Assembly: GCF_014652535.1 (NCBI RefSeq)
Contig: NZ_BMYZ01000002.1
Location: 558,001 to 622,000 of the forward strand
Length of the DNA stretch: 64,000 nt
Direction: 5' to 3'
Origin: Cellvibrio zantedeschiae
GTDB taxonomy: Bacteria; Pseudomonadota; Gammaproteobacteria; Pseudomonadales; Cellvibrionaceae
The notes under the pieces were generated by a model. The model had not been told where the DNA came from and made no database searches. It saw nothing but the letters and a program-made list of their open reading frames with translations. The position numbers and the translations under genes were made by a program. This document shows, in pieces, positions 3,597-51,309 of this stretch (positions within the stretch are counted from its first letter, which is position 1; each line of letters begins with the position of its first letter).

Positions 3597-3691
3597 GAAT
3601 TTAAATTTGTTAAACTGCGGAACCGTTGGCGAACATTACCAATGATAAACTGTATGTAATGACCCGCGACTTACCATGTTAAGTGAAGCTT

Positions 3692-5056
3692 ATGCCGAAT
3701 ATTCTTATTATCGATGATTCAGATGCAGTGCGCGGCGCGCTGGAAACTTTGTTTCAGTGGCAGGGTTATCAAGTCATTTGTGCAGATAGCCCTGCGCGAG
3801 CCTTGCAGCATTTAAAAACAAATAGTATCGATTTGATATTGCAAGATATGAACTTCACCAAAGGTGAAATGCATGGTGCGCAGGGTAAAAATTTATTCTA
3901 TCAATTGCGCGAGCAACATCCTGACGTGCCTATTATTTTAATGACGGCTTGGACCTCGTTAGACATGGTTGTTGAACTGATTAAAGCGGGCGCGATTGAT
4001 TACATCGCCAAGCCTTGGGATGACCAGCGCCTGATTACCACTGTGGCCAACACACTTAAATTAAAAGTATTGCAAGATCAACAACGTTTAAGTGAGCGCC
4101 AGCAACAAGAGCGCCACGCAAGCTTTGTTAATAAGGATTTATGTGGTTTGATATTTGTCAGTACGGCTATGGAGCAGCTATTACAAATGGCAATACAACT
4201 TGCGCCTTCAAATGCCGCTGTATTAATTACGGGTGAAAATGGTACAGGGAAGGAAGGTGTCGCTCATGTGTTGCACATAAACTCCAATCGCCGCGCAAAG
4301 CCTTTTATTAAAGTAAATATGGGTGCACTGCCTGCTGATTTAATTGAGGCTGAATTATTTGGTGCGGAGCCGGGCGCCTATACAGGTTTAACAAAGGTGC
4401 GTATAGGTCGCTTTGAGGCAGCCGATGGTGGAACTTTGTTTCTGGATGAAATTGGCAATCTACCTTTATCTGGCCAGATAAAATTGTTGCGTGTATTGCA
4501 AACCGGTGAGTTTGAGCGACTTGGCTCCAGCGTTACACGTAAGGTGGATGTGCGTTTATTAAGTGCAACTAATGCCGATTTGCCGAACGCTATAAGTGCT
4601 GGGGAATTTCGCCAGGATTTGTATTACCGCATCAATGTTGTGGAATTAAAGATACAACCCTTGGCAAAGCGTCGTGACGATATTCTGCCGCTGGCAAAGC
4701 ACTTTCTTGCAGGGCAAAAAAACTTATCGCGCGCAGCGGAACAAAAAATGTTGGATTATGCGTGGCCGGGTAATGTACGTGAATTGCAAAATGTTTGTCA
4801 GCGTGCCTTATTACTTTCCAATGGTGATGCCATTGAGATTGAGGATTTGTTACTGCAAAATCACAAGTCTTCAATAGTAGAATTGACTGTAAGCGGCGCA
4901 AATAAAAATCGTGCGCTGGATGATATTGATCAACAAACACTAAAGCGCGTGTTGGCACAGCATCAAGGTATAGTATCGCGCGCCGCCAAAGAATTAGGCA
5001 TTACTCGACAAGCGCTTTACCGGCGAATGGAATTTTATGGCCTTGCCAAAATTTAA
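3692..5056 (+). CDS. Sigma-54-dependent response regulator, NtrC family
   Basis: The 454-residue protein has a receiver domain with phospho-acceptor Asp near 52 (LILQDMNF), an AAA+ domain with Walker A GENGTGKE at about 181-188, and a Fis-type helix-turn-helix at the C-terminus (SRAAKELGITRQALYRR). It would activate sigma-54 promoters when phosphorylated by the kinase encoded next. The ATG at 3692 gives the canonical MPNILIIDDS start; an in-frame GTG at 3683 is possible. The sigma-54 contact loop reads GAYTGL at about 228-233 instead of GAFTGA. The Phe-to-Tyr change is conservative, while the last position is unusual. The gene overlaps the kinase gene by 20 bases, so the two are probably translationally coupled. 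Confidence 0.9.
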   Translation: MPNILIIDDSDAVRGALETLFQWQGYQVICADSPARALQHLKTNSIDLILQDMNFTKGEMHGAQGKNLFYQLREQHPDVPIILMTAWTSLDMVVELIKAGAIDYIAKPWDDQRLITTVANTLKLKVLQDQQRLSERQQQERHASFVNKDLCGLIFVSTAMEQLLQMAIQLAPSNAAVLITGENGTGKEGVAHVLHINSNRRAKPFIKVNMGALPADLIEAELFGAEPGAYTGLTKVRIGRFEAADGGTLFLDEIGNLPLSGQIKLLRVLQTGEFERLGSSVTRKVDVRLLSATNADLPNAISAGEFRQDLYYRINVVELKIQPLAKRRDDILPLAKHFLAGQKNLSRAAEQKMLDYAWPGNVRELQNVCQRALLLSNGDAIEIEDLLLQNHKSSIVELTVSGANKNRALDDIDQQTLKRVLAQHQGIVSRAAKELGITRQALYRRMEFYGLAKI

Positions 5057-16602: not shown

Positions 16603-17961
16603 TTATTCAGCGCTGGCCGCGCCTGCCGGTTTGCGTGGGCGACGGCGACGTGGACGGCTGGTGGTATTTTGTTTGCCGAGATCTTTCACCATTTGCTCGC
16701 GCTGTTCATCATCGGCACTTTGAAATGCGGTCCACCAGCTGCCCAAGCCATTAAGTTTTTCGCCAGCATCTTCACGCATCAACAGAAAATCGTAGGCCGC
16801 GCGGAAGCGTGGATGATCCAATAAGCGCAGCGCGCGCATACCCTGACGGCCGGGTAAACGAGCCTGCAAATCCCAAATCTCGCGCATGGGAATCAGGAAG
16901 CGCTTGGGAATAGACGTGCGCGCCAATTGACGGCTAATAACGTTTTGACAAGCTTCGAGATAAGCCGCTTGCGGAGGCATTTTACCTTCCAACAATTTTT
17001 GCTCATGTTGCAATGCTGGCCAGAGCAAGGCCGCGTAGATAAATGCGGGCGTTACGGTTTTCTCGGCACGGATGCGTTTATCGGTGTTGATCATGGAGCG
17101 TTCGATTAACGCGGCGCCCAACTCGTCACCTGCTTTAATGGCGGTGTCCGCACCGGGGAACAGTTGCTTCAGCAAATCGTATTCACGTAGCAAAGTGAAA
17201 GTCGCGGTTGCAGAACCGTTTAAGAACAACTTGAGCACTTCTTCAAACAGGCGGGCCTCGGGAACATTGTTAAGCAGGCTGCCCAATTCACGAATAGGTT
17301 TGGCTGTATTGGGTTCAATTTTAAAACCTAATTTAGCCGCAAAGCGGACGGCGCGCAGCATGCGTACCGGGTCTTCTTTATAGCGTGTCGCAGGGTCGCC
17401 AATGATACGCAGGGTGCGGTTCTTGATGTCTTCCAAACCGTTGCAGTAGTCGTGCACGGAAAAATCGCGGGTAGTGTAATAGAGCGCGTTTACGGTGAAA
17501 TCGCGGCGCGCTGCATCTGTCTCAATAGTGCCGTAAACATTATCGCGCAGCAGCATGCCTTCTTCGGTTTTGGATTTGGCATGGGCAACGTCTTCGTGGT
17601 GCCCCCGGAAAGTCGTTACTTCAAACACTTCGCGCCCAAAACGTACGTGAACGATTTGGAAACGACGACCAATAATGCGAGCACTGCGGAATACACGTTT
17701 GATTTCTTCTGGCTTGGCATCAGTGGCAATATCAAAATCCTTAGGATGACCACCCAATAAAAGATCGCGTACACCACCACCTACCAGGTAGGCAGTAAAG
17801 CCCGCTTCCTCTAACTGCTTGATGATCTTGATCGCAGCCGGACTGATATTTTTGCGTGAAATATTGTGTTGATCGCGAGGAATTACCGTCAGGGAACCGC
17901 TTTTGGGTTCTACAGGTCGCGAAGAGAAAAGGTTGATCAAACGTTTCAGCATAATATCCAT
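16603..17961 (-). CDS. pcnB: Poly(A) polymerase I
   Basis: The 452-residue nucleotidyltransferase adds 3' poly(A) tails to RNA and so promotes decay. It has the class II nucleotidyltransferase core: LVGGGVRDLLLGG followed by DFDIAT (catalytic Asp pair), then the RNA-binding motif RRDFTVNALYY and a helical body. The C-terminus is very basic (RPRRRRPRK), typical of PcnB rather than CCA-adding enzyme. The N-terminal extension with an HNISRKNIS segment also fits PcnB. The first ATG is used; an ATG three codons later is equally possible. The upstream 1.06-kb gap holds the CrcZ-like locus. Confidence 0.93.
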   Translation of the reverse strand: MDIMLKRLINLFSSRPVEPKSGSLTVIPRDQHNISRKNISPAAIKIIKQLEEAGFTAYLVGGGVRDLLLGGHPKDFDIATDAKPEEIKRVFRSARIIGRRFQIVHVRFGREVFEVTTFRGHHEDVAHAKSKTEEGMLLRDNVYGTIETDAARRDFTVNALYYTTRDFSVHDYCNGLEDIKNRTLRIIGDPATRYKEDPVRMLRAVRFAAKLGFKIEPNTAKPIRELGSLLNNVPEARLFEEVLKLFLNGSATATFTLLREYDLLKQLFPGADTAIKAGDELGAALIERSMINTDKRIRAEKTVTPAFIYAALLWPALQHEQKLLEGKMPPQAAYLEACQNVISRQLARTSIPKRFLIPMREIWDLQARLPGRQGMRALRLLDHPRFRAAYDFLLMREDAGEKLNGLGSWWTAFQSADDEQREQMVKDLGKQNTTSRPRRRRPRKPAGAASAE

Positions 17962-18113
17962 GCCACAAATGATTGTAGAGGCGCAAGCAAAGGCCGCGAG
18001 TTTAGCAGAAGCTGCTTTACAGAGGAAATCAAAGCCTTCAGTGGTTATCTAATGCCGACCTAGAGCGGTGGAGGAAATTCTGGATATGTTTTCAACCAAT
18101 AAGTCGTTAAAGC

Positions 18114-18160
18114 CATGGATCCCCGTAAGCGGGGGCGCCTAGCTGAGGATGACGACCCCC
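18114..18160. repeat. Dispersed-type hairpin repeat (GGATCCCCG...CGGGG...GGATGACG)
   Basis: CATGGATCCCCG-TAAG-CGGGGGCG followed by GAGGATGACGAC resembles the short intergenic hairpins of the GGATTCCCGC/GCGGGAATGACG kind that are scattered in many proteobacteria, with about 10 extra bases inside. It lies in the leader region of pcnB. An open frame across it (30 codons from 18115) is explained by the repeat. Confidence 0.45.
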
Positions 18161-18274
18161 TACTTGGCGAGTATTTAGCTGATGAAGGGGATTGGGTTAG
18201 CGACTAAACGGCAGTGGAGCTAATTTGAACCAGCTGTTAGGTTGCTGCTAGGGGATTAGATATCCGCAAATGAA

Positions 18275-18298
18275 CAAAAATGCAGGAAAGCATTTTTG
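18275..18298 (-). terminator. AT-rich hairpin, possible second terminator after the CrcZ-like RNA
   Basis: On the minus strand AAAAATGC-TTTCCT-GCATTTTT forms an 8-base stem ending in a T-run. It lies about 50 bases beyond the stronger hairpin at 18351-18375 and may back it up or isolate the pcnB leader. Confidence 0.45.
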
Positions 18299-18300
18299 CA

Positions 18301-18344
18301 CAGCCGGAGGCTGCCCGCAGGGTTTGCGCCATGGATGGCGCAAA
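18301..18344. repeat. REP-like palindromes (CAGCCGGAGGCTG and TTTGCGCCATGGATGGCGCAAA)
   Basis: Two adjacent palindromes: CAGCC-GGA-GGCTG (18301-18313) and a 22-base palindrome at 18323-18344 with TTTGCGCCAT on each arm. A related GCGCATGGATGCGC lies at 61983-61996 upstream of obgE. The shared core with centre ATGGAT suggests a dispersed extragenic palindrome family. Confidence 0.5.
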
Positions 18345-18346
18345 TG

Positions 18347-18375
18347 AAAACGGGAAAGCCATCACAGCTTTCCCG
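18347..18375 (-). terminator. Rho-independent terminator of the CrcZ-like RNA
   Basis: On the minus strand CGGGAAAGC-TGTGATG-GCTTTCCCG is a perfect 9-base stem, followed by TTTTCATTT. It lies about 325-350 bases downstream of the predicted sigma-54 start site. Confidence 0.75.
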
Positions 18376-18550
18376 TCAGGAGGGCAGCACAACTGAGGTG
18401 CTCATATGGCAATAATGGGCGCTTCCGTACACAAATCCAAACTCGCTTGCTATCCCATCCTCTGCCTAATTGTCTTCCGCTTTATTGTAGTATCTTATTG
18501 CTTTTTTCTTCTAGCGCCGGTCTTGCTCAATCCACGTATCGTTATTTTTA

Positions 18551-18662
18551 TGTTTCTGCTTATTATTGTTTTTTGTTGTTATTAAATATTTCAGTTTCTT
18601 ATTGTTTCTTGTTGTTATTGTAAATTTTCAGTTTCTTATTATTTGTTGTTGTTATTGTCATT
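18551..18662 (-). repeat. Three tandem copies of a 37-base A-rich unit inside the CrcZ-like RNA
   Basis: Copies at 18589-18625 and 18626-18662 match at most positions; a more divergent copy occupies 18551-18588. On the minus strand each holds AACAACAA and an AATAA/AATAATAAG run followed by AAACTGAAA in the two better copies. It looks like local duplication of an Hfq/Crc-binding module. Confidence 0.8.
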
Positions 18663-18707
18663 AAGGTTTTTTTTATTATTGTTTATTGTTTTTAGTGTCC
18701 GACATAG

Positions 18708-18723
18708 AGCACTTCCTATGCCA
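18708..18723 (-). promoter_or_regulatory. Sigma-54 (-24/-12) promoter of the CrcZ-like RNA
   Basis: The minus strand reads TGGCATAGGAAGTGCT, matching the consensus TGGCAC-N5-TTGCW at nearly all key positions, with the invariant GG and GC separated by exactly 10 bases. Initiation would be near 18697. CbrB, encoded 300 bases upstream, is a sigma-54 activator. Confidence 0.8.
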
Positions 18724-18796
18724 ATAAAAAAAATACTATATATAACAGCGGGTTAAGTTTTTTCGCCTTGTTTTTATAACTTTTCGTTATTTCTAT

Positions 18797-18935
18797 GGGT
18801 TACAAAATTCTGGATATTTGTTACCGCTCACTCATTATCGGTAACACTTCATGTGCGGTAACAGTTTCGTGCATGGGGGTAACGGACTGGCGGATTTTTC
18901 AACTGGAAGATTAAAAAATAAGCAAAAGGGTAACG
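18797..18935. promoter_or_regulatory. Cluster of GTTAC/GTAAC half-sites, candidate CbrB upstream activating sequence
   Basis: It contains a perfect inverted repeat TGTTACCG-N12-CGGTAACA at 18819-18846, further GGTAAC half-sites starting at 18857, 18878 and 18929, and a GGTTAC at 18798. The cluster lies about 75-210 bases upstream of the -24 element, the usual distance for an enhancer-binding protein. My recollection is that Pseudomonas CbrB sites also use TGTTAC/GTAACA arms. No other region of this window shows such a cluster. Confidence 0.65.
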
Positions 18936-18996
18936 TGCAAACCTTTTTCAGGTTTGAGTTTAAAAGGTTGAATAAGAAATATGATGTGATAGATCG

Positions 18997-19014
18997 AGGG
19001 AGATTGCTCTCCCT
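18997..19014 (-). terminator. Hairpin directly after cbrB
   Basis: AGGGAGA-TTGC-TCTCCCT forms a 7-base stem 6 bases past the cbrB stop. There is no T-run, so it is either a weak terminator or an mRNA 3'-end stabiliser. Confidence 0.4.
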
Positions 19015-19019
19015 GTCTC

Positions 19020-20441
19020 TTATTTAGCGAGGCTTGATGCGCTATTTTTGGTGCGGGGGATGCCAAGGCGTTGACGGCGTTCCCACAGGCATTTGCGGCT
19101 TACTCCGAGTTTACGCGCCAGCTCGGTTTCGCTCATAGAGTCCTGATGTTCAATAACGAAGCGCTGAAAGTAGTCCTCTAAGGATAAGTCTTCACTGACT
19201 TCTTTGGTTGGGCGTGCTGCATTACCGCCGAGCGTACGCGCTTGGCCAAACAGCATGTTACCGTCGCTGATAGCGGCCTCCTGAACCGGTGCATCACCAT
19301 CTATAGAGAGCAGGTGAGAGCCGATTTCGCTACTGTCTTCACATAGGATGACGGCGCGTTGCATGGCGTTTTCCAACTCGCGTACGTTGCCCGGCCAAGA
19401 GTAAGCCATGATGGCTTCTACGGCGTCGGACGAGAGTCTAAGTTGGGATTTGCCAAACTGGCTGCAGTAACGCTGTAAAAGTGATTCTGCAATGTTAATG
19501 ATGTCGCGACCGCGCTCACGCAGGGGCGGCAGGGTCAATTGGACAACATTGATACGGAAATATAAGTCTTCGCGGAATTTGCCTTCTTTAGCGAGTTTGC
19601 GCAAGTCGCGGTGAGTTGCAGCAACCAGGCGTACATCCACCTTGCGCGATTCAACCGAGCCCAAAGGGCGAACTTCACCTTCTTGCAGTACGCGCAGCAA
19701 ACGGGCCTGGGCTTCCAGGGGTAATTCGCCGATTTCATCGAGGAACAAGGTTCCGCCATCTGCGGCAGCGACCAAGCCTTCACGGTTGCTCGCGGCGCCG
19801 GTAAACGCGCCTTTTTCGTGACCGAAAAGTTCAGATTCAATCAGGGTGTCTGGAATAGCAGCGCAGTTTACGGAGATCATTAAATGGTTGTTGCGCTGGC
19901 TTTCTTCATGAAGGGCGCGAGCAACTAATTCTTTACCGGTTCCGGTCTCACCGTGAATCAATACGGTGGCGGCGGTGGGGGCAACTTTGTGAATGCGGTT
20001 GTAAAGGTCTTGCATAACATCGCTGCTACCAATCATCCCCGCAATCGCTTTACTTGCGGTTAGGCCTTGAGCAGCAGCTTTGTTGGCGGCTTTTGCTTTA
20101 CCGATAACGCGCTTAACTGCGGTGACCATCTCATCGTGGTCGAAAGGTTTGGCCACATAGTCAACCGCTCCCATGCGCATGGAATCTACTGCCGAGCGCA
20201 AGCTGGCGTAGCTGGTCATGATCAATACGGGAGTTTCACCGGCGAGTTTAATGAGGTCTGTTCCGGGTGCGCCGGGCAGTCGCAAGTCGCTGATGATTAA
20301 GTCAAAATCCTTGAGATTAAATTTGCTGGTCGCCTCCTTTACCGAGGGCGCTTCACTTACCTCATACTGATTGCGCTCTAAAAGCTTGCGCAACGCATTG
20401 CGAATGATGTTCTCATCTTCAACAATTAGAATCTTGCTCAT
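19020..20441 (-). CDS. cbrB: Sigma-54 response regulator CbrB
   Basis: The 473-residue NtrC-family activator has a receiver domain with Asp52 (LIISDLRLPG), an AAA+ domain with Walker A GETGTGKE (about 164-171), intact sigma-54 loop GAFTGA (about 211-216), Walker B GGTLFLDEIG, and a Fis-type helix-turn-helix near the end (TELARKLGVSRKCLWERRQRLGI). The CbrB name rests on the CbrA-type kinase upstream and the conserved pcnB-folK side. In pseudomonads CbrAB sets the carbon/nitrogen balance by activating CrcZ. A sigma-54 promoter and likely binding sites lie just downstream. Confidence 0.92.
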   Translation of the reverse strand: MSKILIVEDENIIRNALRKLLERNQYEVSEAPSVKEATSKFNLKDFDLIISDLRLPGAPGTDLIKLAGETPVLIMTSYASLRSAVDSMRMGAVDYVAKPFDHDEMVTAVKRVIGKAKAANKAAAQGLTASKAIAGMIGSSDVMQDLYNRIHKVAPTAATVLIHGETGTGKELVARALHEESQRNNHLMISVNCAAIPDTLIESELFGHEKGAFTGAASNREGLVAAADGGTLFLDEIGELPLEAQARLLRVLQEGEVRPLGSVESRKVDVRLVAATHRDLRKLAKEGKFREDLYFRINVVQLTLPPLRERGRDIINIAESLLQRYCSQFGKSQLRLSSDAVEAIMAYSWPGNVRELENAMQRAVILCEDSSEIGSHLLSIDGDAPVQEAAISDGNMLFGQARTLGGNAARPTKEVSEDLSLEDYFQRFVIEHQDSMSETELARKLGVSRKCLWERRQRLGIPRTKNSASSLAK

Positions 20442-20538: not shown

Positions 20539-23511
20539 TTAAATATCCACTAAAGAATCAACATGTCGCGGTAATTTCACAATGAATTGTGCTCCGCGAT
20601 TTCGCACCGTATCCACGGGGCTGACAATATCCAGCAAGCCGCCATGATCTTCCACGATGCTATATACCATAGCGAGGCCGAGGCCTGTGCCTTCGCCGGG
20701 TTCCTTGGTGGTGAAAAAGGGTTCCAGAATTCGGTCTTGAATGTCGGGTGGAATGCCGCTGCCTTCATCGGTAACCGTAATGTCGATGGAGTATTCATCT
20801 TCATTGCTGGCGAGAAGTACACGGCCATTTTCAGGGCTGGCGTCGCGCGCATTGGAAAGCAGGTTAATGAATACCTGAATCATACGCTGCGTATCGCCGG
20901 CGACAATAGCTGTGGCTGCAATTTCGTTAATAAATTCCACTTGTTGTTTATCTTTTTGCAAGGATAAAAGGCTAATTGCCTCGTTCGCGCAATCGCGCAA
21001 AATAACTGCCTGGAACTCGCTTTTTGCGGTGTGGCCGGTATGCGAGAAACCCACTAGCGACTGCACAATACGTGTCACACGATCTGTTTGGCTGAGAATT
21101 TGATCTGCTGTTTCCAGTACTTCCGGGTTGTCAGAATCGTAGCGTAAGTTCTGTGCCAGACAAGCTATGCCGGTAATAGGATTGCCAATCTCATGGGCCA
21201 CGCCTGCGGCAAGGCGACCTACAGACGCCAGGCGCTCACTGTGTACCAACTCCTGCTCCAATAACTGGGTTTCGGTCACGTCTTCCAGCATCATCACCTG
21301 ATCATAAACACCTTCAGTAATGGGGCCTTCAATGGTGGCTTTGTGTAAGCTTATCCAGTGTGGTCGGCCTTCAAGCTCAATCTCGCGGCGGTAGTAATGC
21401 ATTTCGCGGCTTTTACTGAAATCGGTCAGTAGGCTGCGCCAAGGTTCAGCTATGTCTTCAAGGTACGAACCCGTAACCTCATCGCTGGGAGTGTGGGTCA
21501 ATTGGGCCATGGCGTGGTTCCACATAAGGATCTCGGTATCTGGCCCCAAGGAACACACCGCCATAGGCAGCTCTTGCAAGGTTTTACGATGGTAAAGGCG
21601 GAGGTTATTCAACTCAGCCGCCATACCGGTCAGATGGTTCTGATATTGGGCCAAACGGTTTTCAATCAAGTTAATGTCTAATGTTTCGCGTTCATCGGCC
21701 ACTTTAAAGGGCAGGTGGTTATCCATAATTTCACTGGCGACATGGATTCCCATAAGCGCTGATAAGTTACCTTCCAGCTGGTCGCGCAGGCGGCGCAGGG
21801 CGTAGGGACGGCGTTCGTTAATACGCAGGTCCAATTGGATAAGTGCATTATCTACTTCGCGGCTGGCGATTACTTTGCCGAGCGGTTTGGCGAGGCGCTC
21901 TTTAAATTCTGCTGCTGAGTGGACATCCAAAGCCTGGCGCACTGGATGACTCAGTTCATCAGCGGCACAGAGATCGGCACTGTAATGCTCTTCTTCAGAT
22001 TGTTCGGTGACCAGCGATACCCCAATAAAAATCGCCGTATTCAGGCCCAGAGAGAAAAGCGTAATACTGTTCCAGTACTCGTTGCCTACTGGAATATACA
22101 GTTCTGAAAACGGAATATGTAAAACCTTAATGCCCGTGAAAACTGGCAACAACAATCCCAGGAACCAGATGATGGTTCCTACCGACAGGCCAGCCAGCAT
22201 GCCGCGACGATTGCCGGGGCTCCAGAAAATAATGGCGAAGATGCCGGGCAGGAACTGTAAGGTTTCGATAAAAGCGGCAAAAGCCAAATCCGTCAGGCTG
22301 TAACGGTTATTCAAAATCCAATAAAACAAATAACCGCCAAGGAAGATGGTGGCGATCAGAATGCGGCGCAACCAGATCAATTGGCTGTAAAGGTCGTTGC
22401 GGGCGGCGAGGCGCAAGCTGGGTAATAGCCAGTGGTTCATCACCATAGTCGCCAACGCGAGGGTAATGATAATCATGGCTCCGGTCGCTGCTGATAAACC
22501 GCCGATAAAGGCGAAAATCGTGAGCGAAGGAGAGTTAAATAAAATGGGCACGCCTAGCGTGAAATATTGTGGATCAAGCGGTACAGCCAATTCCGAACCT
22601 GCCCACAGGATTGGGAATATCGGCAACGCCATAAACAGAAGGAATAGTGGAAATGCCCAGGTAACCGTGCGCGAGTTGCGCATTAAGGGATTTTCTGCCA
22701 AACCGAGATGGAAAATGTGGGGCATGGTGACAGCAGTGGCAACGAACACAAGTAAGAGCGTATGCGAAGAGCCATCTTGAATCGGTGTATGCAAAAGCGC
22801 GAGGTTTTCCGGGTGATCGGCTAGCCATTCATTCAGGCCATCAAGGCCATTAAAAACGCCGAACACTGCAACTAGGCCCACGGCAAACATAGCGCAAACT
22901 TTTAACAAACTCTCGAAGGCCATTGCAGTGATAAGGCCGCGGTGTTGGTCGCGGTTGGAGCCAAATAAAATGGTGAATAGTGCGAGAATGGCGCAGTAGC
23001 AAAGCGCCATAACATCTTTAAACGTAAGGCCATTATCTGCAACGGTTAGCGATGGGATGCCGCTGCCGCTGACTACCAAAATATGCATGGTGTCGGCGAT
23101 TGCCTGAATTTGGAGTGCCATCAACGGCATGATGCCGAGCAGCATGCACAGCGTCGTCAAAGCACCAACGGCATTACTGTGGTAACGAAATACCAGTAAG
23201 TCAGCCAGTGAATGCACTTGATGGCGACGGGCCAGTTCTGCCAGTGGTGCCAATGCAACCGGCGCGAAGAGAAATAAGGCTCCCGTTCCCAAATAATAAG
23301 CCAGAGCGCCATAGCCGAACTGGAATGCTAAATCCACCACACCGTAAAACGCCCAGGCGCTGGCAAAGATCCCGAGCGAGAAAATATAGGTTACCGGGTG
23401 ATTGGTAATGCGTTCGGGCACCCACCCGCGCTCGGTAATGTAAGCAATCCCGAACAGTAAAAGCAGGTAACTGATGCCGATAATGGCGACTTGGAGAAAG
23501 TCAAAAGTCAT
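20539..23511 (-). CDS. cbrA: Sensor kinase CbrA with sodium/solute-symporter domain
   Basis: The protein has about 990 residues. The N-terminal half (to about residue 490) is an SLC5/SSS-type membrane transporter domain with about 13 helices, then a STAC-like linker, a PAS domain (about 620-730), the phospho-acceptor helix [13 protein letters not shown], and a HATPase domain with N-box [20 protein letters not shown] and [20 protein letters not shown]. This domain order is diagnostic of CbrA. The start is uncertain: ATG at 23511 gives the usual MTFDFLQ beginning, while a TTG at 23547 overlaps the stop of the small upstream ORF (TTGA) and would add 12 residues. The gap to cbrB is 97 bases. Confidence 0.92.
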
Positions 23512-23543
23512 AAGTCTGGTTCTATTATTTTTGTTCTTTGAGA

Positions 23544-23726
23544 TCAATCAAAATGGTGCGGTTTCTTGCGGCGCCATTGAAAAAGGAAAGTCACGAATAC
23601 CAAGCCCATCCAAAAAAGATAGGGTCGATACCACACCCCACTGGGGCTAATAATCCAGGTGAATAACGACGGCGAAAACAAATACGCAATCAGCAACAGC
23701 AAAATGATGAGACGTTGATGGTTCAT
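23544..23726 (-). CDS. Small membrane protein upstream of cbrA
   Basis: The 60-residue protein has two hydrophobic helices (about 5-25 and 33-50) and a basic C-terminal tail (WRRKKPHH). It lies directly upstream of cbrA, whose start overlaps or closely follows its stop, implying translational coupling. Pseudomonas species carry a short ORF at the same place (called cbrX in some work). Whether it acts on CbrA or only couples translation cannot be told from sequence. Confidence 0.7.
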   Translation of the reverse strand: MNHQRLIILLLLIAYLFSPSLFTWIISPSGVWYRPYLFWMGLVFVTFLFQWRRKKPHHFD

Positions 23727-49703: not shown

Positions 49704-50753
49704 TTATATTTTTAAGCTTAGCTTTTCATTGGCGGGATGCAAGCTTTGCACGCCTGCGAGGTTGAGCACTAAATCGAGCAGCTCATCCCAAGGTTCTGCA
49801 TCGCGCATACCTTTAACCGCTTTATCAATACCATTAGCTTTGCGGAGTAATTGCTGTAGATGTGCTGGTTTCAAACGTTGTAGTGCGCTGCGAAAGAGGG
49901 GTTGTTTTTTATCCCAAACGCCAGATTGTTTTGCGGCCCAGTCAAAGTTTTTGCCTTGGCTGGTCATCTGCGAGATTTGCACCAGGCTGCGGATATCGCG
50001 CGTGAGTGCCCAAAGCACCGCAATAGCCTCGGTGCCTTCAGATTTTAATCCGTGCAAGGTTTTTACTGCGCCGCGTGCGTCACCGTGTAAGGCTTTATCA
50101 GACAGTCCGAAAACATCGTAACGTGCACTATCTGCCACAACACTCGCCATAAGTTCCATGTTAATGACATTGCCGGGTGCGAGTAATTTCAGTTTTTCAA
50201 TTTCTTGTACCGCGGCGAGCAGGTTGCCTTCAATGCGTGAGGCGAGTAAATCAATAGCATTGCTATCGGCCTGCAGGCCGGCTTGCTTTAAACGCACGCC
50301 GATCCAGTGGGATAAGTTTTCTGCAGTGACCGGCCAGTGTTGAATATGTACACCCTGATTTTCCAGTGCGCTAAACCATTTGGATTTTTGTGTGGCACTG
50401 TCAACTTTTTCGGTGATGACCAAAAGCAAATTATCGGAAGAGGGCGATTGCGCATATTCCTGTAAAACCTTGCCGCCCTTATCGCCGGGCTTGCCGTTGG
50501 GAACGCGCACTTCAATAATCTTTTTGTCGGCAAATAACGACATGCTATTCGCTGAGGCTAAAACCTGGCTCCAATCAAAATGATTATCGGCATGATACAA
50601 ATCGCGCTCAACAAAACCGGCTTTGCGCGCTGCGGCGCGAATGGCATCGCAGGTCTCTTGAATAAGCAGCGGTTCTTCGCCCGTAACAATATAAATGGGC
50701 GCTAAACTTTTAGTGAGCGCGCTGCCCAGTTGTTCAGGGCGCAGTTTTGCCAT
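49704..50753 (-). CDS. holA: DNA polymerase III subunit delta
   Basis: The 349-residue clamp-loader subunit opens the beta sliding clamp. It begins MAKLRPEQLGSAL and contains IYIVTGEEPLLIQETCDAIR, the Walker-A-like region of HolA, then AAA+ and collar domains (GDARGAVKTLHGLKSEGTEA, ALWALTRDIRSL). ATG 50753 overlaps the lptE end by 20 bases; the longer frame to 50831 is rejected because its added residues come from out-of-frame lptE. leuS-lptE-holA order is conserved in gammaproteobacteria. Confidence 0.94.
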   Translation of the reverse strand: MAKLRPEQLGSALTKSLAPIYIVTGEEPLLIQETCDAIRAAARKAGFVERDLYHADNHFDWSQVLASANSMSLFADKKIIEVRVPNGKPGDKGGKVLQEYAQSPSSDNLLLVITEKVDSATQKSKWFSALENQGVHIQHWPVTAENLSHWIGVRLKQAGLQADSNAIDLLASRIEGNLLAAVQEIEKLKLLAPGNVINMELMASVVADSARYDVFGLSDKALHGDARGAVKTLHGLKSEGTEAIAVLWALTRDIRSLVQISQMTSQGKNFDWAAKQSGVWDKKQPLFRSALQRLKPAHLQQLLRKANGIDKAVKGMRDAEPWDELLDLVLNLAGVQSLHPANEKLSLKI

Positions 50754-51309
50754 TGCTGGTCTCGCTGGACGAGGATTCGGTAGGTTTGGGTGATTTATTA
50801 GGTTTGCTTTTTTCGCTCGGTGGATTGGCAACGACTGAGCTTAAGCGGCGCAAAATTTGTTGTGCCAAATCGCGGCGCATTTCCTGCTCTAGCAATAACT
50901 CTTCTTGCGTAGCACTGTTGATGGCTGCGGTGTTGTAGTTAAAGTTACGCACGCTAATTGCGGAGCCTTTAATCGTTTGGTTAGTGTTTTTTAAATGAAT
51001 TTCGTAGTTCGCCTTGAGCGTGATTTCGTAAGCGCTACTCAGTTCATCGCCGCCCACACCGGCAGTGTGGCGATCTTTGGTTTCTTCTAAAATGTTAAGC
51101 GAATAATTCGCGTCTGCGGATTTTTCAGCCAGTTTGACGCGATTGGTTTTTAACAGTTGACGCACATCGGTGATGAGTGCGCCTTTGCTATCGGTGGCAG
51201 AAACATACAAGTTGGATAATTGTTTGGGTAACTCAACGGAGCCGCGAATGTGCCAGCCACAAGCAGTGAGACCCAATGTAATTAATGCCAGAGCGATAAT
51301 TTTTTTCAT
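50734..51309 (-). CDS. lptE: LPS-assembly lipoprotein LptE
   Basis: This is a 191-residue outer-membrane lipoprotein with lipobox LTAC (Cys17) followed by GWHIRGS. LptE plugs the LptD barrel and takes part in LPS insertion. Family features include YEIHLKN, the RNFNYNT segment and ...EMRRDLAQQILRRL. The C-terminal 30 residues form a Ser/Pro/Lys-rich tail (KSKPNKSPKPTESSSS), longer than in E. coli. It lies between leuS and holA. Confidence 0.92.
   Translation of the reverse strand: MKKIIALALITLGLTACGWHIRGSVELPKQLSNLYVSATDSKGALITDVRQLLKTNRVKLAEKSADANYSLNILEETKDRHTAGVGGDELSSAYEITLKANYEIHLKNTNQTIKGSAISVRNFNYNTAAINSATQEELLLEQEMRRDLAQQILRRLSSVVANPPSEKSKPNKSPKPTESSSSETSNGKTAP

Follow-up and report, generated by a model that had tools for sequence, protein, structure and literature searches.

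The gap between the cbrB-like and pcnB genes of Cellvibrio zantedeschiae raises the question of whether this bacterium carries a counterpart of CrcZ, the small RNA that lies at the cbrB-pcnB place in Pseudomonas. An earlier note on the window (the whole 64,000-nucleotide stretch that was analysed) had proposed that it does, and this reading is upheld by the architecture of the promoter, the density of AANAANAA motifs, the terminator and the gene order. The element is very probably a CrcZ-type small RNA gene, whose product would act as a sponge for Hfq, or for Hfq together with Crc, in the CbrAB circuit.

The predicted small RNA gene, of about 353 nucleotides (18344-18696), is located between cbrB and pcnB and is on the same strand as both, the minus strand, to which the window positions given below refer except where stated. 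The 5' end of the RNA (18696) was predicted from how far the Rfam CrcZ match starts from the sigma-54 box in one Pseudomonadaceae locus. The upstream gene (19020-20441) encodes a cbrB-like sigma-54 response regulator of 473 amino acids with Response_reg and Sigma54_activat domains. This protein exceeds the cut-off of no NCBIfam model, and it shares 65-69% identity with the CbrB proteins of six Pseudomonadaceae loci that have an Rfam CrcZ adjacent. Farther upstream, an ORF for a sensor kinase of 1002 amino acids (20539-23547) has HisKA, HATPase_c and weak PAS matches, and is called cbrA-like from its position beside cbrB. The downstream gene is pcnB, encoding poly(A) polymerase (16603-17961; TIGR01942 above cut-off). 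The earlier note saw no coding frame over about 350 bases, and the longest ATG, GTG or TTG frame in the predicted transcript indeed has only 20 codons' worth of protein (20 aa); a small peptide product was rejected on this ground.

The promoter comprises more than the sigma-54 box TGGCATAGGAAGTGCT (18708-18723) to which the earlier note had confined it. The exact GG-N10-GC spacing reported there stands, but the box has two mismatches to TGGCAC-N5-TTGCW, and by itself it is not significant because the window contains 54 matches of equal quality when 51.5 are expected. The weight of the box thus comes from its context and conservation, and not from its own match. That context includes features that the note missed, namely CbrB-type subsites and an IHF-like site, just as the RNA includes a 37-nucleotide periodicity and a conserved 3' domain that also went unnoticed. 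According to the available text of Barroso et al. (PMC6296734), CbrB acts at crcZ and crcY of P. putida through one forward and two reverse subsites that are 20-25 bp apart, and the window has the same subsite sequences in the same F-R-R order. These are F1, TGTTAC (18841-18846, with its GTTAC core at -122), R1, GTAACA (18819-18824, core at 18820 and -101), and R2, GTAACC (18798-18803, core at 18799 and -80). An extra forward subsite, TGTTAC, lies further upstream (18858-18863, with its GTTAC core at -139). The IHF-like site (18743-18755) is between R2 and the box, at -32 from the latter. In the window this site is weak, with two mismatches to the IHF consensus. Among relatives, however, 79 of 107 promoters match it with no more than one mismatch at exactly -32, whereas only about 10% of base-shuffled segments match that well anywhere in the segment.

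The 5' half of the RNA is dominated by an A-rich array (18542-18693). The A-rich blocks described in the earlier note prove to be part of a tandem repeat with a period of 37, 2.6 copies and 90% matches, whose modules start at 18656, 18619 and 18583. The predicted transcript contains 24 AANAANAA motifs, whereas dinucleotide shuffles average 3.8, and none of 200 shuffles reaches 24. Across the predicted Cellvibrio RNAs, the 5' half consists of modules of roughly 37 nucleotides with the core AATAACAACAANAAAYAATAA, and the number of modules varies. Each module has five consecutive A-R-N triplets, and the array in the window has four runs of at least five such triplets. The module core AAUAACAACAA also occurs in the 18-mer from amiE in the Hfq/Crc structure, as given in the portion of PMC6422490 available. 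The same test finds no 37-nucleotide modules in six Pseudomonadaceae copies.

The 3' side of the RNA ends in an intrinsic terminator (18349-18377). The terminator noted earlier is confirmed as a predicted structure, and its stem is now drawn with 13 pairs (18377-18349). Compensatory changes among relatives affect two of its pairs, and they are found in the terminator only. The fold of the whole RNA is not more stable than those of shuffled sequences (z -0.57), as might be expected of a sponge, although this is no proof. Further inverted repeats are apparent by eye in the gap between the terminator and pcnB (18270-18345). A plus-strand match resembling RsmY near the same positions scores 17.3 bits against a gathering threshold of 57, and was dismissed as chance.

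These features suggest how the RNA would work. When preferred carbon sources are exhausted, CbrA and CbrB would act, and CbrB would bind the three upstream subsites (F, R, R). IHF would bend the DNA between the subsites and the box, and sigma-54 polymerase would then make the RNA of about 353 nucleotides and stop at the terminator of the gene itself. The 5' half would be a set of mostly unstructured tandem modules, each of which would offer one landing pad for the distal face of Hfq. By soaking up Hfq, with Crc, the RNA would free catabolic mRNAs from their translational block and so relieve catabolite repression. A link to polysaccharide use, as put forward in the earlier note, is conjectural.

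Only one of the 50 ORFs in the window, at 50734-51309, starts with a run of A-R-N triplets (GAGAAATAACAAAAAGG), which is a possible Hfq site. The product, which we take to be LptE-like, is not catabolic in appearance. With one such start motif among 50 ORFs, no target is therefore claimed.

The conserved 3' domain (18342-18475) suggests a different division of labour, in which CrcZ-like control would operate mainly through base pairing of this domain with mRNAs, and the array would only recruit Hfq. The domain has a mean column identity of 80% across 16 Cellvibrio sequences, and its model also hits six further genera of Cellvibrionaceae with E < 1e-6. However, at E up to 1 the model has no hit in the six Pseudomonadaceae loci, and in other families it reaches a few loci, weakly in every case (best 1.6e-5). 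Moreover, the stem predicted in the domain has no compensatory changes or other covariation among relatives, and the feature shared across families is the array and not the 3' domain. A main role in base pairing is therefore improbable, though still to be reckoned with, and the sponge remains the preferred reading. Searches of the C. zantedeschiae genome with the exact F-R-R pattern and with the 3' domain model gave one place each; a degenerate second copy could escape both.

Comparison of the gap across Cellvibrionaceae, an avenue that the earlier note had named, agrees with a conserved sponge gene. Among 16 other Cellvibrio genomes with a readable gap (4 more are unreadable there), the promoter is present in all 16 and the A-rich RNA in 15. 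One other genome of the genus is identical to C. mixtus J3-8 where the two were compared, which fixes the genus as Cellvibrio. CbrB occurs in 129 of 130 genomes of the family (E <= 1e-100). The survey of the stretch behind cbrB took in 70 loci from 30 genera of Cellvibrionaceae, 34 loci from 22 other families and 6 loci from Pseudomonadaceae. The sigma-54 box and an R subsite are found in 66 of the 70 Cellvibrionaceae loci (28 of 30 genera), and in 60 of the loci all three subsites are within 4 bp of -122, -102 and -80. The AANAANAA count is unreached by any of 200 shuffles in 64 of 66 Cellvibrionaceae rows. A canonical promoter was not found in four of the 70 loci. Two of these (L068 and L069) have the RNA and a changed -12 element; the other two (L046 and L047) have neither canonical promoter nor RNA in the stretch covered. 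In a near relative represented by a metagenome bin (G016, which shares its contig with L240), an A-rich block of about 220 nucleotides is missing, and the promoter, RNA start and terminator are kept. Because cbrB of this bin is split across two contigs, misassembly is possible, so the missing block might reflect either a real loss or a faulty bin.

In 63 of the 70 Cellvibrionaceae loci, pcnB follows within the stretch covered. This arrangement would also be expected if the promoter drove a long A-rich leader of pcnB, whose modules regulated that gene in cis, and there were no separate small RNA. However, the conserved terminator separates the array from pcnB, and some copies show no such gene on the available stretch. 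Pseudomonas daroniae has one copy at the cbrB-pcnB place (L197) and a second (L170) with no pcnB on the available stretch. Similarly, a Cellvibrionales bin (L175, at 3644-3760 and downstream) has a CrcZ-type promoter and A-rich RNA away from cbrB. This copy adjoins other genes, presumably for a nudix hydrolase and a PEP-phosphotransferase-like protein, with no pcnB on the available stretch. A pcnB leader is thus very unlikely. That the element is functionless, A-rich, low-complexity DNA with chance motif matches is hardly credible, since, even though the sigma-54 box by itself does not exceed chance expectation, the subsite spacing is kept over many families, controls with reversed patterns give zero matches, the motifs exceed those of dinucleotide shuffles and the terminator is conserved.

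The separate small RNA of the CrcZ type that is preferred here is not recognised by the corresponding Rfam model. The earlier note had pointed to RF01675 as a check, and this expectation failed: the model (gathering threshold 95 bits) has no match in the window, and none at E up to 10 over 17900-19100. It matches 6 of 6 loci of the set called Pseudomonadaceae (family f18), an assignment that itself rests on those matches, and it missed the RNA in every locus of other families tested (0 of 14, plus the window). Since RF01675 fails on the window sequence, a model search alone would have missed the RNA. The predicted RNA is CrcZ-type by place, promoter and motifs, and is outside RF01675 by sequence. 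A patAB-like match in the 17900-19100 scan was set aside as chance (22.5 bits against a gathering threshold of 92).

Another Rfam model, P36 (RF01679, 'Pseudomonas sRNA P36'), overlies the CbrB subsite array upstream of crcZ in four Pseudomonadaceae loci (L137, L138, L139 and L141). In these loci, the P36 region has a hairpin and a T run behind cbrB. P36 may therefore be the cbrB terminator plus the subsites, and not a separate small RNA.

The partners that the proposed circuit calls for are present. The genome encodes Hfq, RpoN, CbrAB and a Crc orthologue, so the hfq and crc genes that the earlier note had thought worth seeking are both there. The hfq gene is flanked by genes that we take to be miaA and hflX. 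Over its first 72 residues, Hfq is nearly identical to 1u1s, the top match among solved Hfq structures (138 bits), presumably that of P. aeruginosa. The crc gene adjoins pyrE, which is present in all 30 loci checked, and Crc is found in 128 of 129 genomes of the family (E <= 1e-40). Its closest solved protein is P. aeruginosa Crc, 4jg3 (9e-75), and the two are identical at 121 of 257 residues. The available part of PMC6422490 names residues through which P. aeruginosa Crc contacts RNA or Crc. All 30 Cellvibrionaceae Crc proteins checked (L150 and L280-L309) retain R140 and R141 and have K or R at position 196, but none retains K155, W161, R162 or R230. Of all the observations, these changed contacts hint most strongly at a mechanism that may differ in detail.

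The element is not confined to Cellvibrio. The earlier note rightly placed a CrcZ counterpart in this genus, but the scope that it implied was too narrow, as the element is found in many families of Pseudomonadales. CbrB is detected in 313 of 391 genomes of the order at E <= 1e-110, where matches near the limit may be paralogues, and 78 genomes have no match at that threshold. Outside Cellvibrionaceae, the box and an R subsite are present in all 6 Pseudomonadaceae loci and, for the other families, in 28 of 34 loci, which represent 17 of the 22 families. All three subsites are within 4 bp of -122, -102 and -80 in 10 of the other-family loci and 5 of the Pseudomonadaceae loci, and two other-family loci have none of the three at these positions. 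The spacing fits closely in Cellvibrionaceae and Pseudomonadaceae but less so in other families. The promoter was not found in 6 of the 34 other-family loci (L103, which is a short contig, L107, L108, L109, L111 and L114). The AANAANAA count is unreached by any of 200 shuffles in 29 of 35 other-family rows and 6 of 6 Pseudomonadaceae rows, and in the worst row of any group, 3 of 200 shuffles reach it.

A strict R-R-box pattern is found in 104 of the 391 Pseudomonadales genomes (37 of 137 genera), with two matches in nine genomes, and the reversed-pattern control of this search has no match in its rows. The strict pattern and subsite survey combined give a match in at least one genome for 22 of 43 labelled families. 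A search of the class matched 2 of 276 genomes, both Pseudomonadales, and none of 272 genomes of other gammaproteobacterial orders. Within the order, 287 of 391 genomes lack the pattern; because it is strict, a genome without it may still carry the gene.

In the titled sequence collection, at least 61 of the 80 loci listed are directly behind cbrB on the same strand, and at least 53 of those also have pcnB. Titles among these cbrB-adjacent loci include Cellvibrio, Gilvimarinus, Microbulbifer, Marinimicrobium, Spongiibacter, Zhongshania, Dasania, Nitrincola, Saccharospirillum, Stutzerimonas and Pseudomonas. Among the loci listed, at least two more have pcnB ahead and no cbrB on the available stretch. 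At least nine, all titled Pseudomonas, Stutzerimonas, Cellvibrionales or Spongiibacteraceae, are rich in AANAANAA and show neither cbrB nor pcnB on the available stretch. At least eight are motif-poor and mostly from unrelated bacteria, as expected by chance. Two bins, titled Klebsiella pneumoniae (L209) and Micrococcales (L213), carry a Pseudomonadales-type crcZ/pcnB region, and their labels look wrong.

Some loci have several promoter-plus-A-rich units in tandem behind cbrB, with three units in L113 and two each in L119, L125, L126, L135 and L136. Judged by their promoters and motifs, these units are predicted tandem crcZ-type genes, and they belong to families f12, f26, f35 and f43.

CbrAB is stated to be exclusive to Pseudomonadaceae in the available portions of two papers (PMC6296734, PMC8871633), and CbrA is discussed for that family only in those of two others (PMC5715377, PMC13022988). 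A further paper, as far as its accessible text goes, reports transcripts of cbrA and cbrB from a marine community but does not name the hosts (PMC5073097). In the literature collection searched, no paper joined CrcZ with Cellvibrio or with Oceanospirillales, and among the matches listed, no title or abstract opening described CrcZ outside Pseudomonadaceae. The exclusivity of CbrAB is contradicted by the genomes compared here, in which CbrB, its subsites and the predicted CrcZ-type RNA are found in many Pseudomonadales families. Genera beyond Pseudomonadaceae with CbrB and the putative RNA include Cellvibrio, Microbulbifer and Gilvimarinus, and catabolite control in these bacteria becomes directly testable. 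The loci also supply a diverse alignment from which the demands that Hfq and Crc make on a sponge RNA could be learned.

A tentative and rather doubtful extension is that the CbrAB-CrcZ-Hfq/Crc circuit was in place early in Pseudomonadales, that the RNA has since diversified, and that Crc of Cellvibrionaceae lost one of its two RNA-contact patches. If the circuit were this early, tandem 37-nucleotide Hfq modules with a second conserved 3' domain would be the form that the RNA took in Cellvibrio and close genera. Other forms would be the two or three tandem crcZ-type genes of several families and the copies located elsewhere. If the Crc patch was lost, the Cellvibrionaceae sponge would hold mainly Hfq, and perhaps the 3' domain acts alone.

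Among known systems, the predicted RNA most resembles CrcZ of Pseudomonas, with which it shares the cbrB-pcnB place, the F-R-R subsites, the sigma-54 box and several A-rich stretches of the Hfq type; an IHF-like site lies in the right place but is weak in the window. CrcZ of P. aeruginosa is described, in the accessible part of PMC4063720, as 407 nucleotides long, similar to the roughly 353 nucleotides here, with six A-rich stretches that the distal surface of Hfq can bind. In contrast to Pseudomonas CrcZ, the Cellvibrio RNA is not matched by RF01675 and is built of tandem 37-nucleotide modules. It also has its own 3' domain, which sets it apart from the Pseudomonadaceae copies, and a G+C content of 0.35, compared with 0.47-0.51 in the stretches of Pseudomonadaceae CrcZ compared. 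CrcY and CrcX, which the available text of PMC6296734 describes as extra copies in P. putida, P. syringae and Azotobacter, are RNAs of the same kind, and the CbrB subsite layout given there for CrcY matches. However, those RNAs are additional copies, whereas the Cellvibrio pattern and 3' model match once. The amiE 6xARN site of the Hfq/Crc cryo-EM work, as far as shown in the accessible text of PMC6422490, is not repeated in the way that the Cellvibrio modules are, which are located in a predicted noncoding RNA and would meet a Crc whose contacts are partly changed. Nevertheless, each module has five ARN triplets where the amiE site has six, and AAUAACAACAA is common to both.
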